Below are positions 24,030 to 46,862 of a stretch of DNA of 46,862 bases, one piece after another (positions within the stretch are counted from its first letter, which is position 1; the number at the start of each line of letters is the position of its first letter). The translations under genes and the position numbers were made by a program. This stretch comes from Bacteroidales bacterium (lineage in GTDB: Bacteria > Bacteroidota > Bacteroidia > Bacteroidales > UBA12077). The notes beneath the pieces are model-generated. The model searched no databases and was not told the origin of the DNA. It saw nothing but the letters and a program-made list of their open reading frames with translations. Location of the stretch: assembly GCA_030611105.1 (NCBI GenBank), contig JAUWQL010000007.1, positions 1 to 46,862 of the forward strand. The letters run 5' to 3'.

Positions 24030-24887
24030 ATGAGAAAATTAATTTTAGCAATTATTATCGGAATTTCAACTCTTTCATTAAATGCACAAGAGTATCTTCC
24101 TACCGAAGCTGATTTAAACCAGTTTTTGAACTCAAAACTTTATGTTGTTTTAGAAACAAATCCTATAGCCGAATATAATTTTAAAATTCAGGAGGCTGTA
24201 AAAAAAGCATGGACACTTACCGAGTATGAGTTTATTTCCTTAGATCAATTCGAAGAAATGTATAACGATACGGATAAGTCTTTTTTAATGATGACACAGG
24301 TCGTTTTTCAAAATGATAAAACAAAAGTTCGATACAATTTCTTAAGTATCTTTATTGGGAAAGAAGGCTTAGATGGATTTGAAGATTTGCCTGATATTGC
24401 GGCTATTCCATTATCATATACTGAGGTAGACGAAGAGTTTTGGGTTTATAAAATGGAATCGTTGGTTAAATTTATGCAAACTCACGTTCAGACTATGAAA
24501 AATAATCCTGAGATGATAAAGAAAAATATTTTTCAGCATTATAATGAGAATACAAAAGATATTAAGCAAAAAACACTGTATTTAGTAAAAGATGAGGTTG
24601 CTCCAAATATTAATACTGAAGCAAAGATTAAGAAAATATATCCTTATAAAGTAAAGTTTGTTACTCGTGAAGAAGTTGAGGAAGCTATAACAAATCGAGA
24701 TGAAGATGTTGTTTTCTTGCACAAGGTAGGGCCACAGGGTACGCGTTTAAGGGCTCGTTGTTATAAAATTATAATTGGTACAAAAGATGCTAATTTATAT
24801 TATTTCGATTATCACTGGGTTGAAAAAGGTAAAAACTTCGATGGCATACTGGATAAAGATTTTAAACAAATGGCTAAGAAAAAATAA
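24030..24887 (+). CDS. Secreted or periplasmic protein of unknown function
   Basis: A 285-residue protein with a clear Sec signal peptide (MRKLILAIIIGISTLSLNAQ, cleavage probably after LNAQ). I do not recognise a domain. The mature part is mixed alpha/beta, rich in aromatic residues and charged, with no internal repeats, no further membrane helix, and no lipobox Cys. The only Cys is near residue 250 (RARCYKIIIG). The last part looks like beta strands (YKIIIGTKDANLYYFDYHWV), which suggests a soluble periplasmic protein. It is flanked by a kinase-like gene upstream (divergent) and a terminator downstream, so it is probably expressed alone; the direct repeats upstream may control it. Confidence 0.75.
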   Translation: MRKLILAIIIGISTLSLNAQEYLPTEADLNQFLNSKLYVVLETNPIAEYNFKIQEAVKKAWTLTEYEFISLDQFEEMYNDTDKSFLMMTQVVFQNDKTKVRYNFLSIFIGKEGLDGFEDLPDIAAIPLSYTEVDEEFWVYKMESLVKFMQTHVQTMKNNPEMIKKNIFQHYNENTKDIKQKTLYLVKDEVAPNINTEAKIKKIYPYKVKFVTREEVEEAITNRDEDVVFLHKVGPQGTRLRARCYKIIIGTKDANLYYFDYHWVEKGKNFDGILDKDFKQMAKKK

Positions 24888-36225: not shown

Positions 36226-37179
36226 TTATTTTCTTTTTAGCACTGATTCAACAGCAGAAACTATATTATCAGTATCAATACCATATTTTGTAAGCAACTC
36301 TTCAGGTTTGCCACTTTCACCAAACTTGTCGTCAACAGCAACCATTTCGATTGGAGCAGGTAATTTACGGCTTAATAGCTGAGCAATAGAATCTCCTAAA
36401 CCACCATTCATCATATGTTCTTCTGCTGTAACTACTGCTTTTGTTTTTGAGACAGATGATAAGACAGCTTCTGTGTCTAAAGGTTTAATGGTATGTATAT
36501 TAATTATTTCAGAAGAAATTCCTTTTTGTTCCAATATCTCGGCAGCTTCAATAGCTTTCCAGACTAAATGGCCAGTGGCAATAATTGTTACATCAGATCC
36601 TTCATTTAGTAATACTGCTTTTCCTATTTCGAATTTTTGATCTTCAGGTGTAAAATTAGGTACTTTTGGTCGTCCAAATCGAAGATATACTGGTCCTACG
36701 TAATCAGCTATTGCAATAGTTGCTGCTTTTGTTTGATTATAATCGCAAGGATTAATAACGACCATTCCGGGAAGCATTTTCATTAAACCAATATCTTCCA
36801 TGATTTGGTGAGTAGCTCCATCTTCACCAAGCGTCAGTCCTGCATGTGAAGCGCATATTTTGACATTTTTACCTGAATATGCTACCGATTGTCTTATTTG
36901 GTCGTAAACACGCCCGGTAGCAAAATTTGCAAATGTTCCTGTAAAAGGGATTTTTCCACCAATGGTTAATCCTGCGGCTGTTCCAATCATATTTGCTTCG
37001 GCAATACCACATTGAAGGAATCTTTCGGGAAACTCATCGGCAAACTGATTCATTTTTAATGAGCCAATAAGATCAGCACATAAAGCAACTACATTTTTAT
37101 TTTTCTTTCCCAGTTCATACAATCCGGCACCAAAACCTGATCGTGTATCTTTCTTGTCTTTATAATTGAATTTTCTCAT
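36226..37179 (-). CDS. Transketolase, C-terminal subunit (split transketolase)
   Basis: A 317-residue protein equivalent to the middle and C-terminal thirds of transketolase. It has the pyrimidine-binding domain with the conserved Glu that activates thiamine diphosphate (RFLQCGIAEANMIGTAAGL), SHAGLTLGEDGATHQ, and a C-terminal transketolase domain (ATGHLVWKAIEAAE). It needs the N-terminal subunit, encoded at 39157-40002, for activity. It transfers two-carbon units in the pentose phosphate pathway. It is last in an apparent minus-strand unit with VWA and MgsA-like genes between the two halves. A 120-base gap with a hairpin precedes it. Confidence 0.92.
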   Translation of the reverse strand: MRKFNYKDKKDTRSGFGAGLYELGKKNKNVVALCADLIGSLKMNQFADEFPERFLQCGIAEANMIGTAAGLTIGGKIPFTGTFANFATGRVYDQIRQSVAYSGKNVKICASHAGLTLGEDGATHQIMEDIGLMKMLPGMVVINPCDYNQTKAATIAIADYVGPVYLRFGRPKVPNFTPEDQKFEIGKAVLLNEGSDVTIIATGHLVWKAIEAAEILEQKGISSEIINIHTIKPLDTEAVLSSVSKTKAVVTAEEHMMNGGLGDSIAQLLSRKLPAPIEMVAVDDKFGESGKPEELLTKYGIDTDNIVSAVESVLKRK

Positions 37180-37299: not shown

Positions 37300-38679
37300 C
37301 TAATAAAGTACTATTTTTTTTGATGATCCTGATTTTATCGTAAATCGTTTATTAATTGTATATATTGCTTGTTTTGTATTTTTAGGCCTGTACACAACCC
37401 TGTAATTTCCAGGTTGCATAATGATATTTTGATGTAATGTTTTCTGATCAAGATTATAAACCCATTTTAAGGTATCTGCTGTCTCAATATAGATACTCCC
37501 ATATCCACTCGAAGCAAGTGAGAAATTTGCTATACCAGGACGTGGTATCTCAATATTTGTAGTACCGCTTTGTTCAATTTTTACATTTTCAACATAAACT
37601 CTGGGAATAGATAATATTTCCAAATCATATTCACCTACAAGGTATTTTTCTATTGTACTGTTTTTCTGAATATTTAAGGTTTTAGGTTTTTTATCCCGAC
37701 GGACAATTATATCTAAATCCTTGTATTGATTACTTCCGGGACATGAAATCTTCAAAAATCCCTGGGGAGTATTAACTCCGATCATATTATGTTTGCCTTC
37801 TGCCAGGATTATATTACTTTTTCTTACAGCAGGCAAAGTATGAACTACAAGATCGTATGTTATTAAAGGATCGATTATCAGCGTATCGGGATTGCCCATG
37901 TAATTGATCGTATGCACGAAGTTATACTTAACTTTACCCGAAACATGATCAAAGAAAGTCATATTTACGTCTGTTTCGGTTGGCATGCCGTTAATATCAA
38001 GCAGGTTAACCTGTGCTGTTGTTGAATTTAAAGCTCTGGAAATAACTATTCCTAAAACCTCTCGGAATTTTTCCTCGTTCGGCGTATTGTAGAAGTGTCC
38101 TACACATTCAAATGTTTTTTCGAAATTAGGATCTATGCCTATGCCAATTACAAAAGGTTTTAGAATAATTCCTTTCTTTTGTAGATTCAGAGATGCCTGA
38201 CATGGATCACCATCACATGCTTCGATTCCGTCAGTTATTAGTATTAATATATTACGACAGTCTTTGCAGGGAGGAAAATCGTTCGCAGCTAACTCCAGAG
38301 AATTAGCAATAGGGGTTGTCCCTTTGGGTATAAGAGAACGAAGTTTTTGCCTGATTTCTCCGGCATTTCCGGGTTTAAAAGGAACTTCAAGTTTTGTATC
38401 ATTACAATCTTGTGGAGGAACCGGACTTTGATGGCCATATACTCTTAATGCCATTTGTATATTGTCCATTTGTTCCAGGCTATCAATAATATGAATTAAG
38501 TATTTTCGTGCAATGCTAATTTTCCTGCCACTTTCCCATGTTCCATACATGCTTTGAGATGCATCGAATACGAATAAAATTCGAGAAGTGGTGGGTTCAG
38601 ATTTGCTTTTTTGAGCCTGTAAATAAATTGTGCTAAACGCAAAAAATAAAATTGATATGTATTTGATTAGTATTTTCAA
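37300..38679 (-). CDS. Secreted von Willebrand factor type A domain protein
   Basis: A 459-residue protein with a signal peptide (about 1-22, ending LQAQ) and a VWA domain (about 32-215). The metal-ion-dependent adhesion site looks complete: DASQS at about residue 39, the Thr in PKGTTPIA, and ITDGIEACDGD. Three Cys pairs in the domain (DCNDT, PPCKDCRN, ACDGDPC) suggest disulfides. The remaining part (about 225-459) is beta-rich with no domain that I recognise; it resembles repeats of small beta domains. It is likely periplasmic or surface-exposed and binds protein. It lies between the MgsA-like gene and the transketolase C-subunit gene, on the same strand. Confidence 0.85.
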   Translation of the reverse strand: MKILIKYISILFFAFSTIYLQAQKSKSEPTTSRILFVFDASQSMYGTWESGRKISIARKYLIHIIDSLEQMDNIQMALRVYGHQSPVPPQDCNDTKLEVPFKPGNAGEIRQKLRSLIPKGTTPIANSLELAANDFPPCKDCRNILILITDGIEACDGDPCQASLNLQKKGIILKPFVIGIGIDPNFEKTFECVGHFYNTPNEEKFREVLGIVISRALNSTTAQVNLLDINGMPTETDVNMTFFDHVSGKVKYNFVHTINYMGNPDTLIIDPLITYDLVVHTLPAVRKSNIILAEGKHNMIGVNTPQGFLKISCPGSNQYKDLDIIVRRDKKPKTLNIQKNSTIEKYLVGEYDLEILSIPRVYVENVKIEQSGTTNIEIPRPGIANFSLASSGYGSIYIETADTLKWVYNLDQKTLHQNIIMQPGNYRVVYRPKNTKQAIYTINKRFTIKSGSSKKIVLY

Positions 38680-38719: not shown

Positions 38720-39121
38720 TTAGTCTTCCATTGATTTTCTTCGTTCGTAATCTTCCTTTTTTATATGTCCAAGAATTATTAATTCGGCACTGGCATAATT
38801 TGTTGCCAGTGGGATGTTATACATGTTACAAGCTTCTAGTAATAACTGAATATCTTCATGATGTCCTTGTTTAATTAAAGGATCGCGCAAGAATATCACG
38901 ATATCAATTTCATTACGTTTAATTCTATCGGTAATTTCTAGATATCCACCAGATTCACCCGGGCTATAATGTTCTACTTTTATCCCTTGTGATTCAACAT
39001 ATTCTGCAGTTCTTCCTGTTGCAATTAGATTTACACCAAAAATCCAATCTTTGCGGTCATTTAAAAATTGAACCATCTCGGGCTTTTTCACATCATGAGC
39101 AATAATTACAATGTTTTTCAT
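38720..39121 (-). CDS. Methylglyoxal-synthase-like protein lacking the catalytic Asp
   Basis: A 133-residue protein with the MGS-like fold. Methylglyoxal synthase makes methylglyoxal from dihydroxyacetone phosphate. Aligned without gaps to E. coli MgsA, ours keeps H9/D10 (H19/D20), the phosphate loop ATGRTAE (ATGTTGN), D80 (D91), H87 (H98) and D90 (D101). The GGD motif that carries the proposed catalytic base D71 reads GESGGYLE, so Tyr60 replaces Asp71. It may therefore be inactive, have another activity, or bind a phosphorylated metabolite as a sensor. It begins 35 bases after the transketolase N-subunit gene and is 40 bases before the VWA gene, so they may be co-expressed. Confidence 0.8.
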   Translation of the reverse strand: MKNIVIIAHDVKKPEMVQFLNDRKDWIFGVNLIATGRTAEYVESQGIKVEHYSPGESGGYLEITDRIKRNEIDIVIFLRDPLIKQGHHEDIQLLLEACNMYNIPLATNYASAELIILGHIKKEDYERRKSMED

Positions 39122-39156: not shown

Positions 39157-40002
39157 TTAATAATCTCCTAAAGATTCTTTTAACTGATTAAGTGCTGTTT
39201 CGAGTTGTGCATCATTTGGTGCTACACCATGCCATTTGTGTGTTCCCATCATGAAGTCGACACCCATACCCATTTCAGTTTTCATTAAAATTATAATAGG
39301 TTTTCCATTACCAGTAATTGTTTTTGCCTGATTAATGGTTTTAACAACATCAGCCATGTCATTACCATTCATTTCTAGCACATGCCAGCCAAAACTTTCC
39401 CATTTAGCTCTTAGGTTTCCCAGAGAAATAATTTCATCAACAGGGCCATCAATTTGTTTGCCATTATAATCGACTGTTGCTATTAAATTATCAATTTTGT
39501 GCTGTGCTGCAAACATTGCTGCTTCCCAAATTTGACCTTCTTGTAATTCTCCATCTCCGTGAAGCGAAAAAACCAATTTAGAATCGTTATTCAGTTTTTT
39601 AGTAATTGCTGCTCCGCAAGCTACCGATAATCCCTGTCCTAAAGAACCTGAAGCAATCCGTATTCCGGGTAATCCTTCTTTTGTGGTTGGATGTCCCTGT
39701 AACCTGGAATTTAATGTTCTGAATGTTGAAAGTTCTTCAAGTTTAAAATACCCGGTACGAGCTAAAACGCTGTACCATAAAGCGGAAAGATGTCCGTTTG
39801 AAAGAAAGAATATATCCTGATCTTTACCATCCATATCAAAATTTATTGGATCATGATCCATAATTTCGAAATAAAGTGCTGTGATAAAATCTGTACATCC
39901 CAATGACCCTCCCGGGTGACCAGAATTTTGTGCATGAACCATTCTTACTATATCTCTGCGTACTTGCGATGCTATTTGTTTTAAGTTTTGAATATCAGAC
40001 AT
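39157..40002 (-). CDS. Transketolase, N-terminal subunit (split transketolase)
   Basis: A 281-residue protein equivalent to the N-terminal thiamine-diphosphate-binding domain of transketolase. Visible marks are SGHPGGSLGCTDFI, SNGHLSALWY, and the ThDP/Mg2+ motif GDGELQEGQIWEA...DYNGKQIDG. The partner half is at 36226-37179. It heads the apparent minus-strand unit transketolase-N, MgsA-like, VWA, transketolase-C. Split transketolases are known in archaea and many bacteria, but the halves are normally next to each other. Confidence 0.93.
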   Translation of the reverse strand: MSDIQNLKQIASQVRRDIVRMVHAQNSGHPGGSLGCTDFITALYFEIMDHDPINFDMDGKDQDIFFLSNGHLSALWYSVLARTGYFKLEELSTFRTLNSRLQGHPTTKEGLPGIRIASGSLGQGLSVACGAAITKKLNNDSKLVFSLHGDGELQEGQIWEAAMFAAQHKIDNLIATVDYNGKQIDGPVDEIISLGNLRAKWESFGWHVLEMNGNDMADVVKTINQAKTITGNGKPIIILMKTEMGMGVDFMMGTHKWHGVAPNDAQLETALNQLKESLGDY

Positions 40003-40221: not shown

Positions 40222-41319
40222 ATGAGTTTACAGTGTGGTATAATTGGTATAACAAATGTTGGCAAATCAACTCTTTTTAATTGTATGTCGAATTCAAAAG
40301 TTGAAACAACAAACTTTGCCTTTAGTACGAATAAATCAAATATTGGAATTGTTAATGTGCCAGATAATAGATTATTTGAACTTGAAAAACTTCAATCTAC
40401 AGAAAAGCTTATTCCTGCGACTGTTGAGATAGTTGATATTCCTGGTTTAACAAAGGGTGCAAATCAGGGTGAAGGTGTAGGGAATAAATTTTTGGGAGAT
40501 ATCAGAAATACCGATGCTTTAATTCATGTATTAAGATGTTTTGATGATGAAAACCTTCCTCATATTGATGGTTCTGTTGATCCTGTTAGAGATATAGAAA
40601 CCATTAATTTTGAATTACAGATAAAAGATTTGGAATCAGTTGAAAAGAAAATTCAACGATACGAAAAGCTTGTAAAAACAGGAGATAAAGATGCCAAACA
40701 TGGTGTTGAGGTTTTAAATGGCTTCAAAGAGCATTTAGAGTCAATGCAAAATGTACGTGATTATCAGATTTCAGATACGGATAAAAAACATATTGATGAT
40801 ATATTTCTTTTAACTGCAAAACCTGTAATTTACGTTTGTAATGTTGATGATGCTTCGGCAGTTTCAGGGAACGCTTATGTTGATAAAGTTAAAGAAGCTT
40901 TGAAAAATCAGAATACTGAGATACTCGTGATTGCAGGCAAACTGGAAGCAGAAATAGCAGATTTGGAAGATATTGAAGACAGAAATGAATTTTTAACTGA
41001 TGCAGGATTGACAGAGCCAGGTGTAAATAGATTAATTCGTGGTGCATATTCATCATTAAATTTAATGTCGTTTTTTACTGTTGGACCAAAGGAAATAAGG
41101 GCATGGACAATTAAAAAAGGAATGAGTGCACCACAAGCTGCAGGAGCAATTCATAGCGATTTGGAACGTGGCTTTATTCGTGCAGAGGTTATGAAATACA
41201 ATGATTTTATTACAATAGGTTCTGAAACTAAAGTGAAAGAAGCCGGGAAATTTCATGTCGAAGGTAAAAATTATATTGTCGATGATGGCGATATTTTACA
41301 TATCAGGTTTAATGTTTAA
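40222..41319 (+). CDS. ychF: Redox-regulated ATPase/GTPase YchF (Obg family)
   Basis: A 365-residue P-loop protein of the universal OLA1/YchF family, which binds ribosomes and prefers ATP over GTP. Motifs: P-loop GITNVGKSTLFN (residues 7-18), switch II DIPGLTKGANQGEG (about 73-86), and NVDD in place of NKxD (about 213), the substitution that explains the ATP preference in the family. A coiled-coil insert lies at about 130-170 and a TGS domain at the C-terminus (about 280-365, FFTVGPKEIRAWTI and DGDILHIRF). It is usually 363-365 residues long. It is divergent from the transketolase genes. Confidence 0.96.
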   Translation: MSLQCGIIGITNVGKSTLFNCMSNSKVETTNFAFSTNKSNIGIVNVPDNRLFELEKLQSTEKLIPATVEIVDIPGLTKGANQGEGVGNKFLGDIRNTDALIHVLRCFDDENLPHIDGSVDPVRDIETINFELQIKDLESVEKKIQRYEKLVKTGDKDAKHGVEVLNGFKEHLESMQNVRDYQISDTDKKHIDDIFLLTAKPVIYVCNVDDASAVSGNAYVDKVKEALKNQNTEILVIAGKLEAEIADLEDIEDRNEFLTDAGLTEPGVNRLIRGAYSSLNLMSFFTVGPKEIRAWTIKKGMSAPQAAGAIHSDLERGFIRAEVMKYNDFITIGSETKVKEAGKFHVEGKNYIVDDGDILHIRFNV

Positions 41320-41544: not shown

Positions 41545-41910
41545 ATGAATACATTATTTGCAATTTTTATTGGTGGTGGATTGGGTAGTGTAACTCGATT
41601 TGGGATATCAAAATTTGTCACTTCAGATTTTAAAGAAATTAATCCTGTAGGAACTTTAACGGCTAATGTTGTAAGTACTTTAATCTTAGGTGTTATACTA
41701 TTTCTAACAACAGAAAAACTTATTATATCGCCAACTATTAAAGCACTTTTAATTGTTGGATTTTGTGGAGGATTTAGTACATTCTCAACATTTAGTTATG
41801 AGACTTTTGAATTATTACGATCAGGAAATTATTACTTTGCCACTGCAAATATATTAGTAAGTATATTCTTAGGTGTTGGAGTTTTGTTTATTTTAGCACG
41901 AAGTATTTAA
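41545..41910 (+). CDS. crcB: Fluoride ion channel CrcB/Fluc
   Basis: A 121-residue membrane protein with four helices. Fluc proteins form antiparallel dimers that export fluoride. The family motifs are present: GGGLGSVTRFGIS near the N-terminus, GTLTANVVST with the conserved Asn in TM2, and GFCGGFSTFSTFSYE with the Phe-box and Na+-binding loop in TM3. The start lies 226 bases after ychF. No fluoride riboswitch consensus (GGNGATGG and the pseudoknot) was seen. It precedes the PafA-like gene by 19 bases and may be cotranscribed with it. Confidence 0.94.
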   Translation: MNTLFAIFIGGGLGSVTRFGISKFVTSDFKEINPVGTLTANVVSTLILGVILFLTTEKLIISPTIKALLIVGFCGGFSTFSTFSYETFELLRSGNYYFATANILVSIFLGVGVLFILARSI

Positions 41911-41929: not shown

Positions 41930-43582
41930 ATGCACAAAAGAAAATATTCTACAAAATCAATATTACTTAGTCTTTTTATTTTATTCGGGTTTAGTATATT
42001 GCAAGCTCAGAATCAACTTAATAAACCGCCAAAATTAGTTGTTGGAATTGTAATTGAAGAAATGCGCTATGAAATGCTTCTTCGCTACTGGGATTCATTT
42101 GGAGAAAATGGTTTTAAAAAAATAATAAACCATGGAGCTTTTTGTACTCAAACTCACCACAATTATTTAATTACACAGAATGGTGTAGGTCAGGCAAGTA
42201 TAGTAACAGGAACATATCCTAATTATCACGGAATTATCTCAGATACCTGGTATAATCGATTAACAGGTAAAACTGTTGGTTGTGCCGACGAATCAAAATT
42301 TAATTTAATAAATGGAGAGATTTCAATGGGGAATTTTACTCCTAAAAATATAATAAGCTCTACTATTGGAGATGAATTGAAACTGGCTACCAATGATAGC
42401 TCTAAAGTAATTTCTATTTCTTTGAATCCTGTTTCTGCCGTGATTTCAGGAGGAAGATTAGCAGACTACACATTTTGGTTTAATAATCATGATGGTGGAT
42501 GGATAACAGGGAACTATTATACCGATACTTTGCCGGCATGGGTAAAGGAGTTTAATGCAAAAGGATTTCAGGAGGTATATATGAGAAGGAACTGGGCAAG
42601 TATGTATTCCTTAGAAAATAATTATAAATATAGTTTACCCGACGATAGTGATTTTGAAATAGGTTTTAGAAATTATCGTTATACTTTTCCGTATGATTTA
42701 TCATATTTGAGAAATCGATCCGGAAATTTTAAATATCTAAAATATACTCCGTTTGGAAATACTTACACCAAGGATTTTGCTGTATCGACAATAGTTAACG
42801 AGAATTTAGGGAAAGATAATTTTACAGATTTTCTTACAATCAGTTTTTCTGCAACAAATTACAGTGGAGAATTATTTGGCCCTCGATCTGTTGAAATAGA
42901 AGATTTATTTTTGAGATTAGATAAAGATTTGGAACACCTTATAAGTTTTCTTGATAATGAAATAGGGTTGGAGAATACTTTGATTTATATAACATCCGAC
43001 AGAGGAGTTTCTGATGTTCCTGAATATCTTATTTCTAAAAAACAAAATGCAGGTGTATTTGATGGTGCCAAGGCTGTTACTTTACTTAATAGTTATTTGA
43101 GTATTGTATATCAGGAAGGAGAATGGGTAAAGTCATATCATTCAAGACAGATATATTTTAATCAGCAATTAATAGACAATACCGGTGTTGATTTAAATGA
43201 GATTCAAAACAAAGTGGCCAACTTTATGGTTCAGTTTACCGGTGTGGCAAATGCACTCCCTGCATCAACAATAAATTCAACGAATTTTGGGTCCGGTATT
43301 AATCAAAAAATTCAAAACAGTTTCCATCAAAAACGCTCGGGTGATGTGATAATAAACCTTGAACCCGGCTGGATTGAAAAAAATGGATATGTAACAAAAT
43401 CAGGATCGGGATATGAATACGATACTCATGTTCCTTTAATCTGGTACGGGTGGAAAGTTAAAAGTATTCGAATAGACAGACCCACAGAAGTAATAGATAT
43501 TGCCCCAACAATTGCATGGATACTTAAGATAACTTCGCCAAATGCTTCAGTTGGCAATCCAATTTCTGAAATAATAGAATAA
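41930..43582 (+). CDS. PafA-like alkaline phosphatase superfamily protein with degenerate active site
   Basis: A 550-residue protein with a signal peptide (about 1-27, ending LQAQ) and an overall match to the PafA-type alkaline phosphatases of Bacteroidota (VVGIVIEEMRYEML, TGTYPNYHGI, YEYDTHVPLIWYG). The catalytic positions are mostly changed relative to PafA: metal ligand D38 becomes E43, nucleophile T79 becomes N84 (in YLITQNGVGQAS), N100 becomes D105, K162/R164 become N/V in SLNPV, D305 and H309 become N310 and E314 (SATNYSGELFG), and H353 becomes R358 (TSDRG). Only D357 and H500 of the metal set remain. The fold and surrounding motifs are kept over the full length, so this is a conserved pseudoenzyme rather than a broken gene. 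It may bind phosphate esters or act as an envelope scaffold. Confidence 0.85.
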   Translation: MHKRKYSTKSILLSLFILFGFSILQAQNQLNKPPKLVVGIVIEEMRYEMLLRYWDSFGENGFKKIINHGAFCTQTHHNYLITQNGVGQASIVTGTYPNYHGIISDTWYNRLTGKTVGCADESKFNLINGEISMGNFTPKNIISSTIGDELKLATNDSSKVISISLNPVSAVISGGRLADYTFWFNNHDGGWITGNYYTDTLPAWVKEFNAKGFQEVYMRRNWASMYSLENNYKYSLPDDSDFEIGFRNYRYTFPYDLSYLRNRSGNFKYLKYTPFGNTYTKDFAVSTIVNENLGKDNFTDFLTISFSATNYSGELFGPRSVEIEDLFLRLDKDLEHLISFLDNEIGLENTLIYITSDRGVSDVPEYLISKKQNAGVFDGAKAVTLLNSYLSIVYQEGEWVKSYHSRQIYFNQQLIDNTGVDLNEIQNKVANFMVQFTGVANALPASTINSTNFGSGINQKIQNSFHQKRSGDVIINLEPGWIEKNGYVTKSGSGYEYDTHVPLIWYGWKVKSIRIDRPTEVIDIAPTIAWILKITSPNASVGNPISEIIE

Positions 43583-43736: not shown

Positions 43737-46655
43737 TTATTTTTTAGAGCAAATTAACAATCTGCTATCTCTACTTAATGTTATTGATTTATCATTAATC
43801 AAACAAGGAGCTTCCACATTTTCATTATTAGATTTAATAGCTTTTCCTGTAATGAGGATTGCCAATTTATCTTCTATATCAATATTTTTTACCTTCTTAG
43901 CCAGGACTAATTCTCCTTTTGATAATAGTCGCTGTACTTCTGCGTGTTGCATTTTGTTATAAGGCTCGTGTTCCGAGATTATATTTTCAGCCAAACGTGG
44001 AGCAGCAATTTGCCATAATTTGTCTTCTAAAGTATGATTGTCATGAATCACTTGTTGCATACTTACAGCAGTAAGTCTAAGTACTGTAACAGGCGATTCT
44101 GCTGTTACAGTAGCAGTTCTTGGAACATTAGTAAGGACGGCAATTTCACCAATAACACTTCCTCTTCCTAAAATATCAATAAGCTTCTTATTAATAGTTA
44201 CTTTTACAGATCCACGAGCAATAACATATAATCCATCAACTTGTCCATGTTCTTTTATAATTTTTTCTCCAACAGCATAGTTTCTATGTTGGAACAAGCT
44301 CACAACCTTATTAAAAATTGGTTTATCAAGTTCTTTTAGCCATGATATATCTTGCAATAATTTGGCTTTTTCAGGAGGTACTATTTCAGGAGGCGAGTCA
44401 ATAAGTTTCTTCATTCGTTCTTCAATACTTTCAGTCATTTTATGAGCTTCATCGGAACCTATTTGTCCTTTCTTTTGTAATCTTTCAACAATTTTTAATT
44501 CACTATTTAGGTTTGAACGTATTGCCTGGCGTGTTGCGATAGCATCATAAATTTCAGGGAAAGTATTTTTAAGGTTTCTTAAGAATGTTAAACCATGTAT
44601 TCTGTTCTCATTAATTTCACTTTCTATAGTTGCCAGATCCTGATCTATTGTTAATTCTTCGGTATCAGAACTTATTGCCATGCCTTCTGCCAGTTTCAAT
44701 GTATCATATTGAGCTTCAACAAAACCTCTTGCTGCATCGTAACTGTTAGTTAATCGCTCAAAAAAGAATCTTTGAGAAATTTTATCCAGAATTGGTATAG
44801 ACTGAAGTTTGTTAAGGAACTTTGGTGTTTGCCATAGTTGTTCTAAATCTTTTCTTTCTGATAAGGGAATTTTCCCGTCAGAATCAATAATTTCATTAAT
44901 GGCATCGGTCAAATTACGAACTGCAATTGGACCTAGCAGGCCTTCTTTAAATTGATTCCAGTAACTACTTTTCTCTTTTTCTAGAATCCTTCTTCTGGTC
45001 TCGTACAAATTGGAATGTTTTCCTTCGTCAAGTATAATTTCAATATTTTCAGGTTCTTCCGGTAAATAGGCTTTAACGCTTTCCCAATTTGCTCTGCTTA
45101 AGAACCGGTCTGATTTTAGTTTATCCATTGAATTTTCTGCAGTATTCCGCAGATAACTTTTAGCATTTAAAATCATTTTTTGTTTAGCAGGAGGTATATC
45201 AGTTAATCCTAACCAACTAAGAAGGGCTTTAATAGTTGTAGCGTTAATTACTAAAGTAAGAGTTACAATTCCTGCAGTATAGAATAAGAATTGCTCTCTT
45301 ATTGTTCCATCAATTTTTGATTCACCGACAACAATTAAAGCAAGTGCTAATCCTATTGCTCCGCGTAAAGCTCCCCACCATAAAACATAGGCATTTTTTC
45401 TTGATAAACCATAACCTACTTTCCTCATAACAGGGAAGAAAATTGCAATAACAATGGCTCTAACAATATGAATTCCAACATATAATATTAATAAAATCAA
45501 GAAATCATTAGCGGTAAATACAATGTTATTTGCAATAACAACACCTACAATTAAGAAAATCAATGTATTCGCTATAAATGCAAATAATTCCCAGAACTCG
45601 TGAAGAAAGTGTTCTACTTCAGGACTAATTCTGGTTCGGCCAACACTTGCCATAAATATACCAAATGATACTAAACCAAGAACACCTGATACATGTAAGA
45701 AATGTTCAGCTACAAAGAAAGTCATATAAGCAGCAGCAACAATTACGGTTATTTCAACTAATGCATCATTAAACACTTTTTTAACCCATGCTATAACAAT
45801 ATAACCAATAATAATTCCTACTAAAGTACCACCAACAGCTACTCTGAAAAATTCTATTATTGGCGAAGTATCAGACCCTGCACCTGTAATACCCAAAAGC
45901 AGTACCATGAAAATAACAATTGCAGTACCATCATTTAACATTGATTCGCCTTCAATAAGTGTTCCCAGTTTTTTGCTTGCACCAACATCTTTAAGTATTG
46001 ACACAACAGCAACCGGGTCGGTAGCACTAATAACTGCACCTAGAAGCAAGGCCATTGACCAACTCCATTTATTTAGTCCGATTCCTACCATTTTCATTCC
46101 AACTACGATTAAAGCAGTGAGCACTATAGCAACTATGATTCCGGGAACGGCAAGAATAAATGCATTTGCTGATGTTTTTTTAAATGTATGAACATCCATT
46201 GCAAATGCTGCTTCAAAAATCAAAGTAGGTAAAAAGATATAAAGTATTAGATGCGGATCAATATTTCCTGCCCAACCAATAGCATCACTCATAAAAGTGG
46301 CATCTAGCTTTAATCCGATTATATTCCATTCGCCAAAATATCCCATTCGGGACAGCACTCCTAAAACCAAACCAATCAGCAATAAGGAAACTGTAAAGGG
46401 AAGGGGGCTTTTTTTAAGGAAATGACGTGTTGCGGCTCCAATTATTAATGCAATAATAATAAAGAATAACGGACTCATAGTTCCTGTATGTCCTGATTCT
46501 TCTGCATGAACTTCTTCATGAGTATTTGTCTGATCCTGATGAACTGATATTTCAGTTTCTTCTTTTTCGTGCTCTTGTGCTAAGACATTATTCTGTAGTG
46601 AAAGACTTAATGTAATAATTAACAGAAAGAGCAAATAACGGAATAGATTTTTCAT
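43737..46655 (-). CDS. Na+/H+ antiporter (CPA1 type) with C-terminal cyclic-nucleotide-binding-type domain
   Basis: From the Met at 46655 the protein has 972 residues and a normal signal sequence (MKNLFRYLLFLL...VLAQ); the Met nine codons earlier gives an odd leader and is less likely. A His/Glu-rich linker (about 30-60) follows, then a 12-13-helix Na+/H+ exchanger domain (about 60-490) with ATDPVAVVSILK and GESMLNDGTAIV. A long helical cytoplasmic part (about 500-765) leads to a CNMP-binding fold (about 770-890) with GLYVIARGSVKV and the phosphate-cassette-like GEIAVLTNVPRTATV. This order recalls plant SOS1 and animal SLC9C exchangers. It may let a nucleotide or other ligand control pH or Na+ homeostasis. 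The gene stands alone on the minus strand. Confidence 0.9.
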   Translation of the reverse strand: MKNLFRYLLFLLIITLSLSLQNNVLAQEHEKEETEISVHQDQTNTHEEVHAEESGHTGTMSPLFFIIIALIIGAATRHFLKKSPLPFTVSLLLIGLVLGVLSRMGYFGEWNIIGLKLDATFMSDAIGWAGNIDPHLILYIFLPTLIFEAAFAMDVHTFKKTSANAFILAVPGIIVAIVLTALIVVGMKMVGIGLNKWSWSMALLLGAVISATDPVAVVSILKDVGASKKLGTLIEGESMLNDGTAIVIFMVLLLGITGAGSDTSPIIEFFRVAVGGTLVGIIIGYIVIAWVKKVFNDALVEITVIVAAAYMTFFVAEHFLHVSGVLGLVSFGIFMASVGRTRISPEVEHFLHEFWELFAFIANTLIFLIVGVVIANNIVFTANDFLILLILYVGIHIVRAIVIAIFFPVMRKVGYGLSRKNAYVLWWGALRGAIGLALALIVVGESKIDGTIREQFLFYTAGIVTLTLVINATTIKALLSWLGLTDIPPAKQKMILNAKSYLRNTAENSMDKLKSDRFLSRANWESVKAYLPEEPENIEIILDEGKHSNLYETRRRILEKEKSSYWNQFKEGLLGPIAVRNLTDAINEIIDSDGKIPLSERKDLEQLWQTPKFLNKLQSIPILDKISQRFFFERLTNSYDAARGFVEAQYDTLKLAEGMAISSDTEELTIDQDLATIESEINENRIHGLTFLRNLKNTFPEIYDAIATRQAIRSNLNSELKIVERLQKKGQIGSDEAHKMTESIEERMKKLIDSPPEIVPPEKAKLLQDISWLKELDKPIFNKVVSLFQHRNYAVGEKIIKEHGQVDGLYVIARGSVKVTINKKLIDILGRGSVIGEIAVLTNVPRTATVTAESPVTVLRLTAVSMQQVIHDNHTLEDKLWQIAAPRLAENIISEHEPYNKMQHAEVQRLLSKGELVLAKKVKNIDIEDKLAILITGKAIKSNNENVEAPCLINDKSITLSRDSRLLICSKK

Positions 46656-46862
46656 TGATTTTGGATTAAAATTTAAACCCAAGATACGAAAAATATCTTT
46701 AAAAATTTTAAAAGCTAATTCCTTAATAACCTTCTATGTTGTAATCCAAATTTTATTTAAGCTCTTTATTAATAATCAAATAATTATAAAAAATAGTGTT
46801 TAACTTCGGGCAATACAGAGCTAGAAAGTTTTCTTTACTTGGCAAATATTTACTGGGTTAGA

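Follow-up and report, generated by a model that had tools for sequence, protein, structure and literature searches.

How a protein can keep the fold of a phosphatase while nearly every residue of the active site has been replaced, and what such a protein may be retained for, are the questions raised by one gene of a Bacteroidales contig (JAUWQL010000007.1). The whole stretch of 46,862 nucleotides that was analyzed is referred to here as the window. The relative against which the gene product has to be judged is PafA, the phosphate-irrepressible alkaline phosphatase of Elizabethkingia and a leading model for quantitative enzymology. Ten residues of PafA are established to provide two zinc sites, a Thr nucleophile, and the contacts to the phosphate. 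Specifically, D38, D305, H309, D352, H353, and H486 are zinc ligands, T79 is the nucleophile, and N100, K162, and R164 contact the phosphate, the latter two being responsible for monoesterase specificity.

The window protein has the PafA fold but not the PafA active site

The open reading frame is intact, and its start resembles a signal peptide (Table 1). Pfam assigned a single domain, PF01663, and phmmer returned PafA (5tj3/5too) and PhoK as the top PDB matches, with residues 33 to 549 aligning end to end with 5tj3 (E 1.7e-95). The NCBIfam model alk_phos_PafA (NF042991) matched residues 25 to 550 with 567.6 bits, which is short of its equivalog cut-off of 650 bits. An AlphaFold (AF2) model built from 40 homologues reached a mean pLDDT of 88.7 and a pTM of 0.88, and Foldseek ranked 5tj3 first for this model, with TM scores of 0.88 (query) and 0.93 (target) at 32% identity. 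The model and its match to 5tj3 thus indicate that the PafA fold is retained across the full length. The end-to-end fold signatures that an earlier note on this DNA had read from the sequence were borne out by phmmer, NCBIfam, and Foldseek alike.

In an alignment anchored on T79, in which all ten named positions land on the expected PafA letter, the window protein has lost nine of the ten catalytic and zinc positions, including the nucleophile and five of the six zinc ligands; the equivalent of D352 is the sole survivor. The eight replacements listed in the earlier note (at D38, T79, N100, K162, R164, D305, H309, and H353) were all correct, as was its statement that D352 has an equivalent, which is D357. 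Its claim that H486 is also retained was rejected: Ser491 aligns with H486 in the pairwise as well as in the multiple alignment, and the histidine that had been seen is H500, which corresponds to the noncatalytic H495 of PafA. The observation is real and had been slightly understated, with nine rather than eight positions replaced. The earlier note had named relocated residues as the outcome that would speak against its reading; a catalytic Thr or a metal ligand set elsewhere in the window protein was looked for and is absent. Judged by its residues, the protein fails every defining active-site feature of a phosphatase, so that activity is predicted to be absent, and it would almost certainly be devoid of PafA-type catalysis. 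With these replacements, a protein of the PafA fold would have neither a two-zinc site nor a Thr nucleophile left.

Table 1. Features of the window around the degenerate pafA gene (pafA′)
Feature	Position	Strand	Basis
Gene for YchF-like GTPase, marking the pafA′ locus by upstream synteny	40222..41319	+	Name from sequence reading
CrcB fluoride channel gene, immediately upstream of pafA′	41545..41910	+	Conserved ychF-crcB-pafA′ order
Degenerate PafA homologue, 550 aa	41930..43582	+	Sequence, AF2 model, Foldseek
Signal-peptide-like N-terminus MHKRKYSTKSILLSLFILFGFSILQAQ, without lipobox Cys; predicted periplasmic	41930..42010	+	Read from sequence
E43 = PafA D38 (Zn ligand), replaced	42056..42058	+	Alignment
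N84 = PafA T79 (nucleophile), replaced	42179..42181	+	Alignment
D105 = PafA N100 (phosphate contact), replaced	42242..42244	+	Alignment
N166, V168 = PafA K162, R164 (monoesterase specificity), replaced	42425..42433	+	Alignment
N310, E314 = PafA D305, H309 (Zn ligands), replaced	42857..42871	+	Alignment
D357 = PafA D352, kept; R358 = PafA H353 (Zn ligand), replaced	42998..43003	+	Alignment
Cap segment, residues 366 to 445, conservation rises in degenerate family	43025..43264	+	Conservation comparison
S491 = PafA H486 (Zn ligand), replaced	43400..43402	+	Pairwise and multiple alignment
H500 = PafA H495, retained His, noncatalytic, motif YDxHxPL	43427..43429	+	Alignment

Loss of the catalytic residues is order-wide

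The genus relatives that were recovered (G001 to G019) have an identical or almost identical residue set at the ten positions, ENDNVNEDRS with small variations, and E43, N84, N166, D357, R358, and S491 are fixed within the genus. Across the order, evidently Bacteroidales, a PafA-like protein was found at E ≤ 1e-50 in 232 of 393 genomes, and 147 near-full-length proteins, PafA included, were extracted for scoring of the ten positions. Of these proteins, 124 are degenerate, each with 5 to 10 positions replaced and in many combinations; the other 23, among them nine from other orders and PafA itself, are intact (22 with all ten residues and one with N100D). In a more distant group, with 25 to 29% identity to PafA, all nine full-length members examined are degenerate. 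The alignment with PafA and count of homologues proposed in the earlier note thereby yielded 133 degenerate sequences versus six intact ones in the native lineage of the order. The degenerate homologues span dozens of its families, and different clades hold incompatible residue sets at the ten positions. Two degenerate copies (L125 and L168) have D305, H309, and H486, i.e., a whole zinc site, together with K162, and have lost T79 and D352; going by these residues, a one-metal remnant is possible.

Outside the order, the residues are kept. All 69 homologues sampled from other orders of the same class retain the full set, and the same holds for 23 further outside-order genomes deliberately chosen for the lowest scores (down to 272 bits), one of whose homologues was pieced together from two contig parts. 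Taken together, none of the 92 homologues sampled outside the order has lost any of the ten residues, regardless of divergence. Because even the lowest-scoring ones stay intact, low similarity alone does not explain the loss; membership of the order, not low similarity, predicts it.

In a first tree, nine losses were counted with regain forbidden, a number that falls to six at a support of ≥80 and to one at ≥95. A second tree, for which better outgroups were added and the longest branches left out, gave a single order-specific clade (SH-aLRT 100) of 57 degenerate and six intact rows, with at least three changes. The six intact sequences form short branches near the base of this clade, and seven other intact copies of the order (L096, L132, L139, L141, L142, L143, and L160) group with sequences from other orders. 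Of the seven genomes that carry such a "classical" intact PafA, six have a degenerate copy as well, so that a live PafA does not substitute for the dead one.

Selection acts on the protein, and constraint has moved from the pocket to the cap

Pairwise dN/dS values (Nei-Gojobori) were 0.06 to 0.11 in the window's genus, 0.02 to 0.07 in other degenerate clades, and 0.08 to 0.10 for intact pairs. With values of 0.02 to 0.11 among degenerate pairs, the protein is not decaying. A sequencing or assembly artefact or a frameshift was rejected, because the reading frame is open in every genus member recovered, the genus relatives carry close residue sets, and dN/dS relative to near relatives is low, at 0.06 to 0.10; the earlier note had likewise excluded a frameshift, and its view that selection keeps the protein for a role other than PafA catalysis agrees with the purifying dN/dS values. 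As in conserved pseudoenzymes, the catalytic residues have been lost in many genomes without a pseudogene arising, and constraint has relocated. Within the PafA family, the degenerate homologues constitute a conserved clade of pseudophosphatases, very probably with a noncatalytic role under selection.

The relocation was evident from conservation percentiles. The ten catalytic positions average 0.95 in intact enzymes of other lineages and 0.33 in the degenerate set, where they are among the most variable of the family, and the residues beside the pocket positions go down as well, from 0.72 to 0.52. Residues 366 to 445, the least conserved segment of the intact enzymes at 0.28, reach 0.52 among the degenerate proteins (Mann-Whitney p 2e-17), while the other segments shift by 0.07 at most. 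The cap consensus of the degenerate family comprises F377, L385, Y389, Y394, W399, L410, L414, F432, and G438, and most positions at which conservation was gained hold a hydrophobic or aromatic residue or Gly. When signature positions were defined as those conserved at ≥70% in the degenerate set and at <50% in classical intact enzymes, 43 were obtained, 20 of which fall in residues 366 to 480. The six order-native intact copies match 89% of the signature, compared with 26% for the classical intact enzymes. In the distant degenerate group, F377, L385, W399, L410, L414, and G438 are present in nine of nine members, and Y389, Y394, and F432 in eight of nine.

Being largely hydrophobic or aromatic, the conserved cap residues could reflect core packing instead of an interface. 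Alternatively, they might be a mere marker of shared ancestry, which is less likely because the divergent group has retained them while losing other signature positions. The conservation pattern suggests that the cap is probably the working part of degenerate PafA.

Genomic context of the degenerate pafA genes

The ancestral locus consists of ychF, then crcB or a gene for a T9SS-type M14 peptidase, then pafA′, followed by opposite-strand genes of the GGGP-synthase, phosphopantetheinyl-transferase, gldD, gldE, ssb, and mutY kinds; of these names, GldD and M14 were confirmed and the others assigned by sequence reading. Of the 46 loci with a member of the YchF-like family (c1), 45 have it upstream of and in the same orientation as pafA′, and crcB, which is part of the conserved order ychF-crcB-pafA′, is also found next to the intact copies L092, L097, and L075. 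Orthology in place is supported by the intact copies L050, L092, L097, and L075, which have parts of the ancestral locus. The M14 peptidase, found at 26 loci, was rejected as a partner: the window lacks it, and two intact copies (L050 and L097) have it nearby as well, so that its adjacency is treated as inherited synteny. Dependence on the T9SS, approached by phylogenetic profile, was dropped too, as SprA occurs in 371 of 393 genomes and is thus uninformative.

Overall, the neighbours of pafA′ vary by clade and include crcB, the M14 peptidase gene, an rfbB-like gene, nadC, lnt, and lnb. The window gene follows ychF and crcB and precedes an antiporter-like gene; lnb and secA are not among its neighbours. 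Because neighbours differ between clades and neither lnb nor lnt is near the window gene, operons provide only weak evidence for the clade of this gene. The downstream gene (43737-46682, minus strand), which is conserved in the genus, encodes a sodium/proton-antiporter-like protein of 981 aa whose very long C-terminal part resembles a cyclic-nucleotide-binding domain. Elsewhere in the window, two transketolase-like genes for N- and C-terminal halves are split by a methylglyoxal-synthase-like gene and a gene for a secreted VWA-domain protein (36226-37179, 38720-39121, 37300-38679, and 39157-40002, minus strand), an arrangement conserved across the genus, and an open reading frame of 285 aa (24030-24887, plus strand) remained unmatched in Pfam at E 0.1, in a region whose annotation is otherwise good. 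In rumen members (L060 to L070), a paired histidine kinase and response regulator are encoded next to pafA′, and several of these loci have a BatD-like gene as well.

Two other clades have neighbours of a different kind. In the distant group, lnb is located upstream of pafA′, adjacent or nearly so, in seven of nine loci, six of which also have secA downstream. One member, L185 (G053), still has neighbours known from the ancestral locus (pcrB-like, GldE-like, ssb, mutY, and rng) and is the single genome that may bridge the two loci. In the clade of L034, L071, and L073, lnt (LNT_N plus CN_hydrolase) is immediately upstream. At L073 (4082-5887), the apolipoprotein N-acyltransferase directly upstream of the degenerate pafA is fused to DUF6122. 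Lipoprotein N-acylation in Bacteroides is catalyzed by Lnb (PMC12994826). In P. gingivalis, PGN_1457, a "probable alkaline phosphatase," is situated beside SecA, PGN_1458 (PMC3764172); it probably belongs with the lnb-pafA′-secA proteins, its orthology having been assigned by synteny alone. Counted over family-level representatives (one genome more than the 119 of the search tool), the co-occurrence of Lnb and a PafA-like protein was 46 of 54 versus 22 of 66 genomes (OR 11.5, p 1e-8, kinship uncorrected), and the unrelated control gene crcB gave an OR of 2.9. Lnb and Lnt nearly exclude each other across the order, with 10 genomes having both (p 2e-17). The window genome (G000) has one Lnb and two Lnt genes (contigs C70, C111, and C55), the Lnb gene being on the separate contig C70.

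Because distant members lie between lnb and secA and another clade lies beside lnt, a role in lipoprotein maturation or secretion is proposed. A place for degenerate PafA in this pathway is a tentative suggestion, to be taken as a lead and not as a result. The adjacency of lnb in the seven distant loci, in six of them with secA on the opposite side, the lnt gene next to pafA′ in an unrelated clade, the known activity of Lnb, and the co-occurrence would suit a narrower assignment as well, that of a specific accessory factor of lipoprotein N-acylation acting with Lnb or Lnt. This assignment is unlikely, however, as G006 from the window's own genus has pafA′ and no detectable Lnb, the neighbours of the window gene are unrelated, and the co-occurrence ignores phylogeny. 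It is also improbable that the full scheme holds, i.e., that an order-wide pseudophosphatase, descended from a bifunctional PafA with a prior cap role, serves as a noncatalytic partner of Lnb or Lnt with SecA.

Proposed function

The best explanation, toward which the evidence as a whole tilts slightly, is a periplasmic pseudophosphatase whose cap has a putative noncatalytic binding role, most likely in envelope protein traffic. A few intact native copies already bear the cap signature, which points to a bifunctional ancestor: the ancestral enzyme of the order would already have had a second, cap-based role, catalysis would then have become dispensable and been lost, and the pocket would have drifted afterwards. 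Binding of something else by the cap subdomain (residues ~366 to 445) would be the reason for retention. Most speculatively, the protein may take part in envelope protein traffic as a noncatalytic partner or scaffold, the likeliest processes being lipoprotein maturation or secretion. The scaffold or envelope assembly factor suggested in the earlier note fits better than the phosphate-ester sensor suggested alongside it, in view of the cap constraint and the lnb, lnt, and secA operons of some relatives.

As a sensor, the protein would still bind a phosphoester or another anionic ligand in the old pocket without turnover. The fold and the pocket-forming backbone are retained, and the fixation of the replacement residues in the window's genus makes the pocket locally conserved. 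Family-wide, however, the pocket positions are so variable, together with the residues adjacent to them, that conserved ligand recognition there is unlikely, and the residue sets of different clades are incompatible; the sensor is thus not supported, and we consider it quite unlikely.

A changed enzyme, with different chemistry at a new or single-metal site, is a very unlikely alternative to the cap-binding pseudophosphatase. Some clades do have one complete zinc site, e.g., ESDK[NS]DHxHH with D305, H309, and H486, and several polar residues are invariant (D148, N209, D300, E322, D325, D331, and D472). Yet intact PafA conserves the same polar residues to a similar degree, so that they represent no gain, the positions that were gained are chiefly hydrophobic, aromatic, or Gly, and the window's clade is without any zinc ligand except D352. 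Although 161 of 393 order genomes have no match at E 1e-50, so that the gene can be lost, a partly relaxed relic under folding constraint only, briefly kept after phosphate scavenging was lost in phosphate-rich anoxic habitats, is highly improbable, as neither the genus-level dN/dS, nor the presence in dozens of families and the coexistence with live copies, nor the increase in cap conservation would be expected of it.

Relation to previous work and to known systems

In the one phylum-wide study of PafA diversity that was found, Lidbury et al. (2022) removed open reading frames without the key residues, or with point mutations there, before building their PafA tree (PMC8812569), and degenerate homologues have therefore probably been seen and set aside. 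In the literature searched, mostly outside subscription journals, no paper describing PafA pseudoenzymes as a family was found. Genes annotated as alkaline phosphatase across the order could be miscounted as phosphate-releasing in surveys of gut, rumen, and sediment; most order members so annotated are almost certainly not phosphate-releasing enzymes. A natural family in which the scaffold was kept, catalysis dropped, and the cap constrained would allow a test of why caps exist and also of the origin of pseudoenzymes from bifunctional ancestors. If the link to Lnb, Lnt, and SecA is true, lipoprotein biogenesis in this dominant group of gut bacteria would involve a hitherto unrecognized component.

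Searches of the PDB for a solved pseudo-relative returned just PafA, PhoK, and remoter superfamily matches. The ENPP5, ENPP6, and NPP entries are catalytic enzymes, as is PhoK, and all of them are much remoter in sequence from the window protein (11 to 23% identity); as members of the alkaline phosphatase superfamily, they have the superfamily fold in common with it (TM 0.79/0.83 for PhoK). PafA (5tj3) shares with the window protein the fold over the whole length, 32 to 33% identity, and a signal-peptide-like N-terminus. The window protein differs from it by the nine changed residues and the score below the equivalog cut-off, and the degenerate family as a whole differs in that conservation resides in the cap instead of the pocket. 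The order-native intact copies (L050, L090, L092, L094, L097, and L100) have the cap signature in common with the degenerate proteins and, in the case of L050, L092, and L097, also ychF, crcB, or M14 neighbours, whereas their ten catalytic residues are all present, so that they look like the state before the loss. The lnb-pafA′-secA proteins, finally, resemble the window protein in being degenerate and in having the core cap positions, and are set apart from it by their other locus and their identity of 25 to 29% to PafA.
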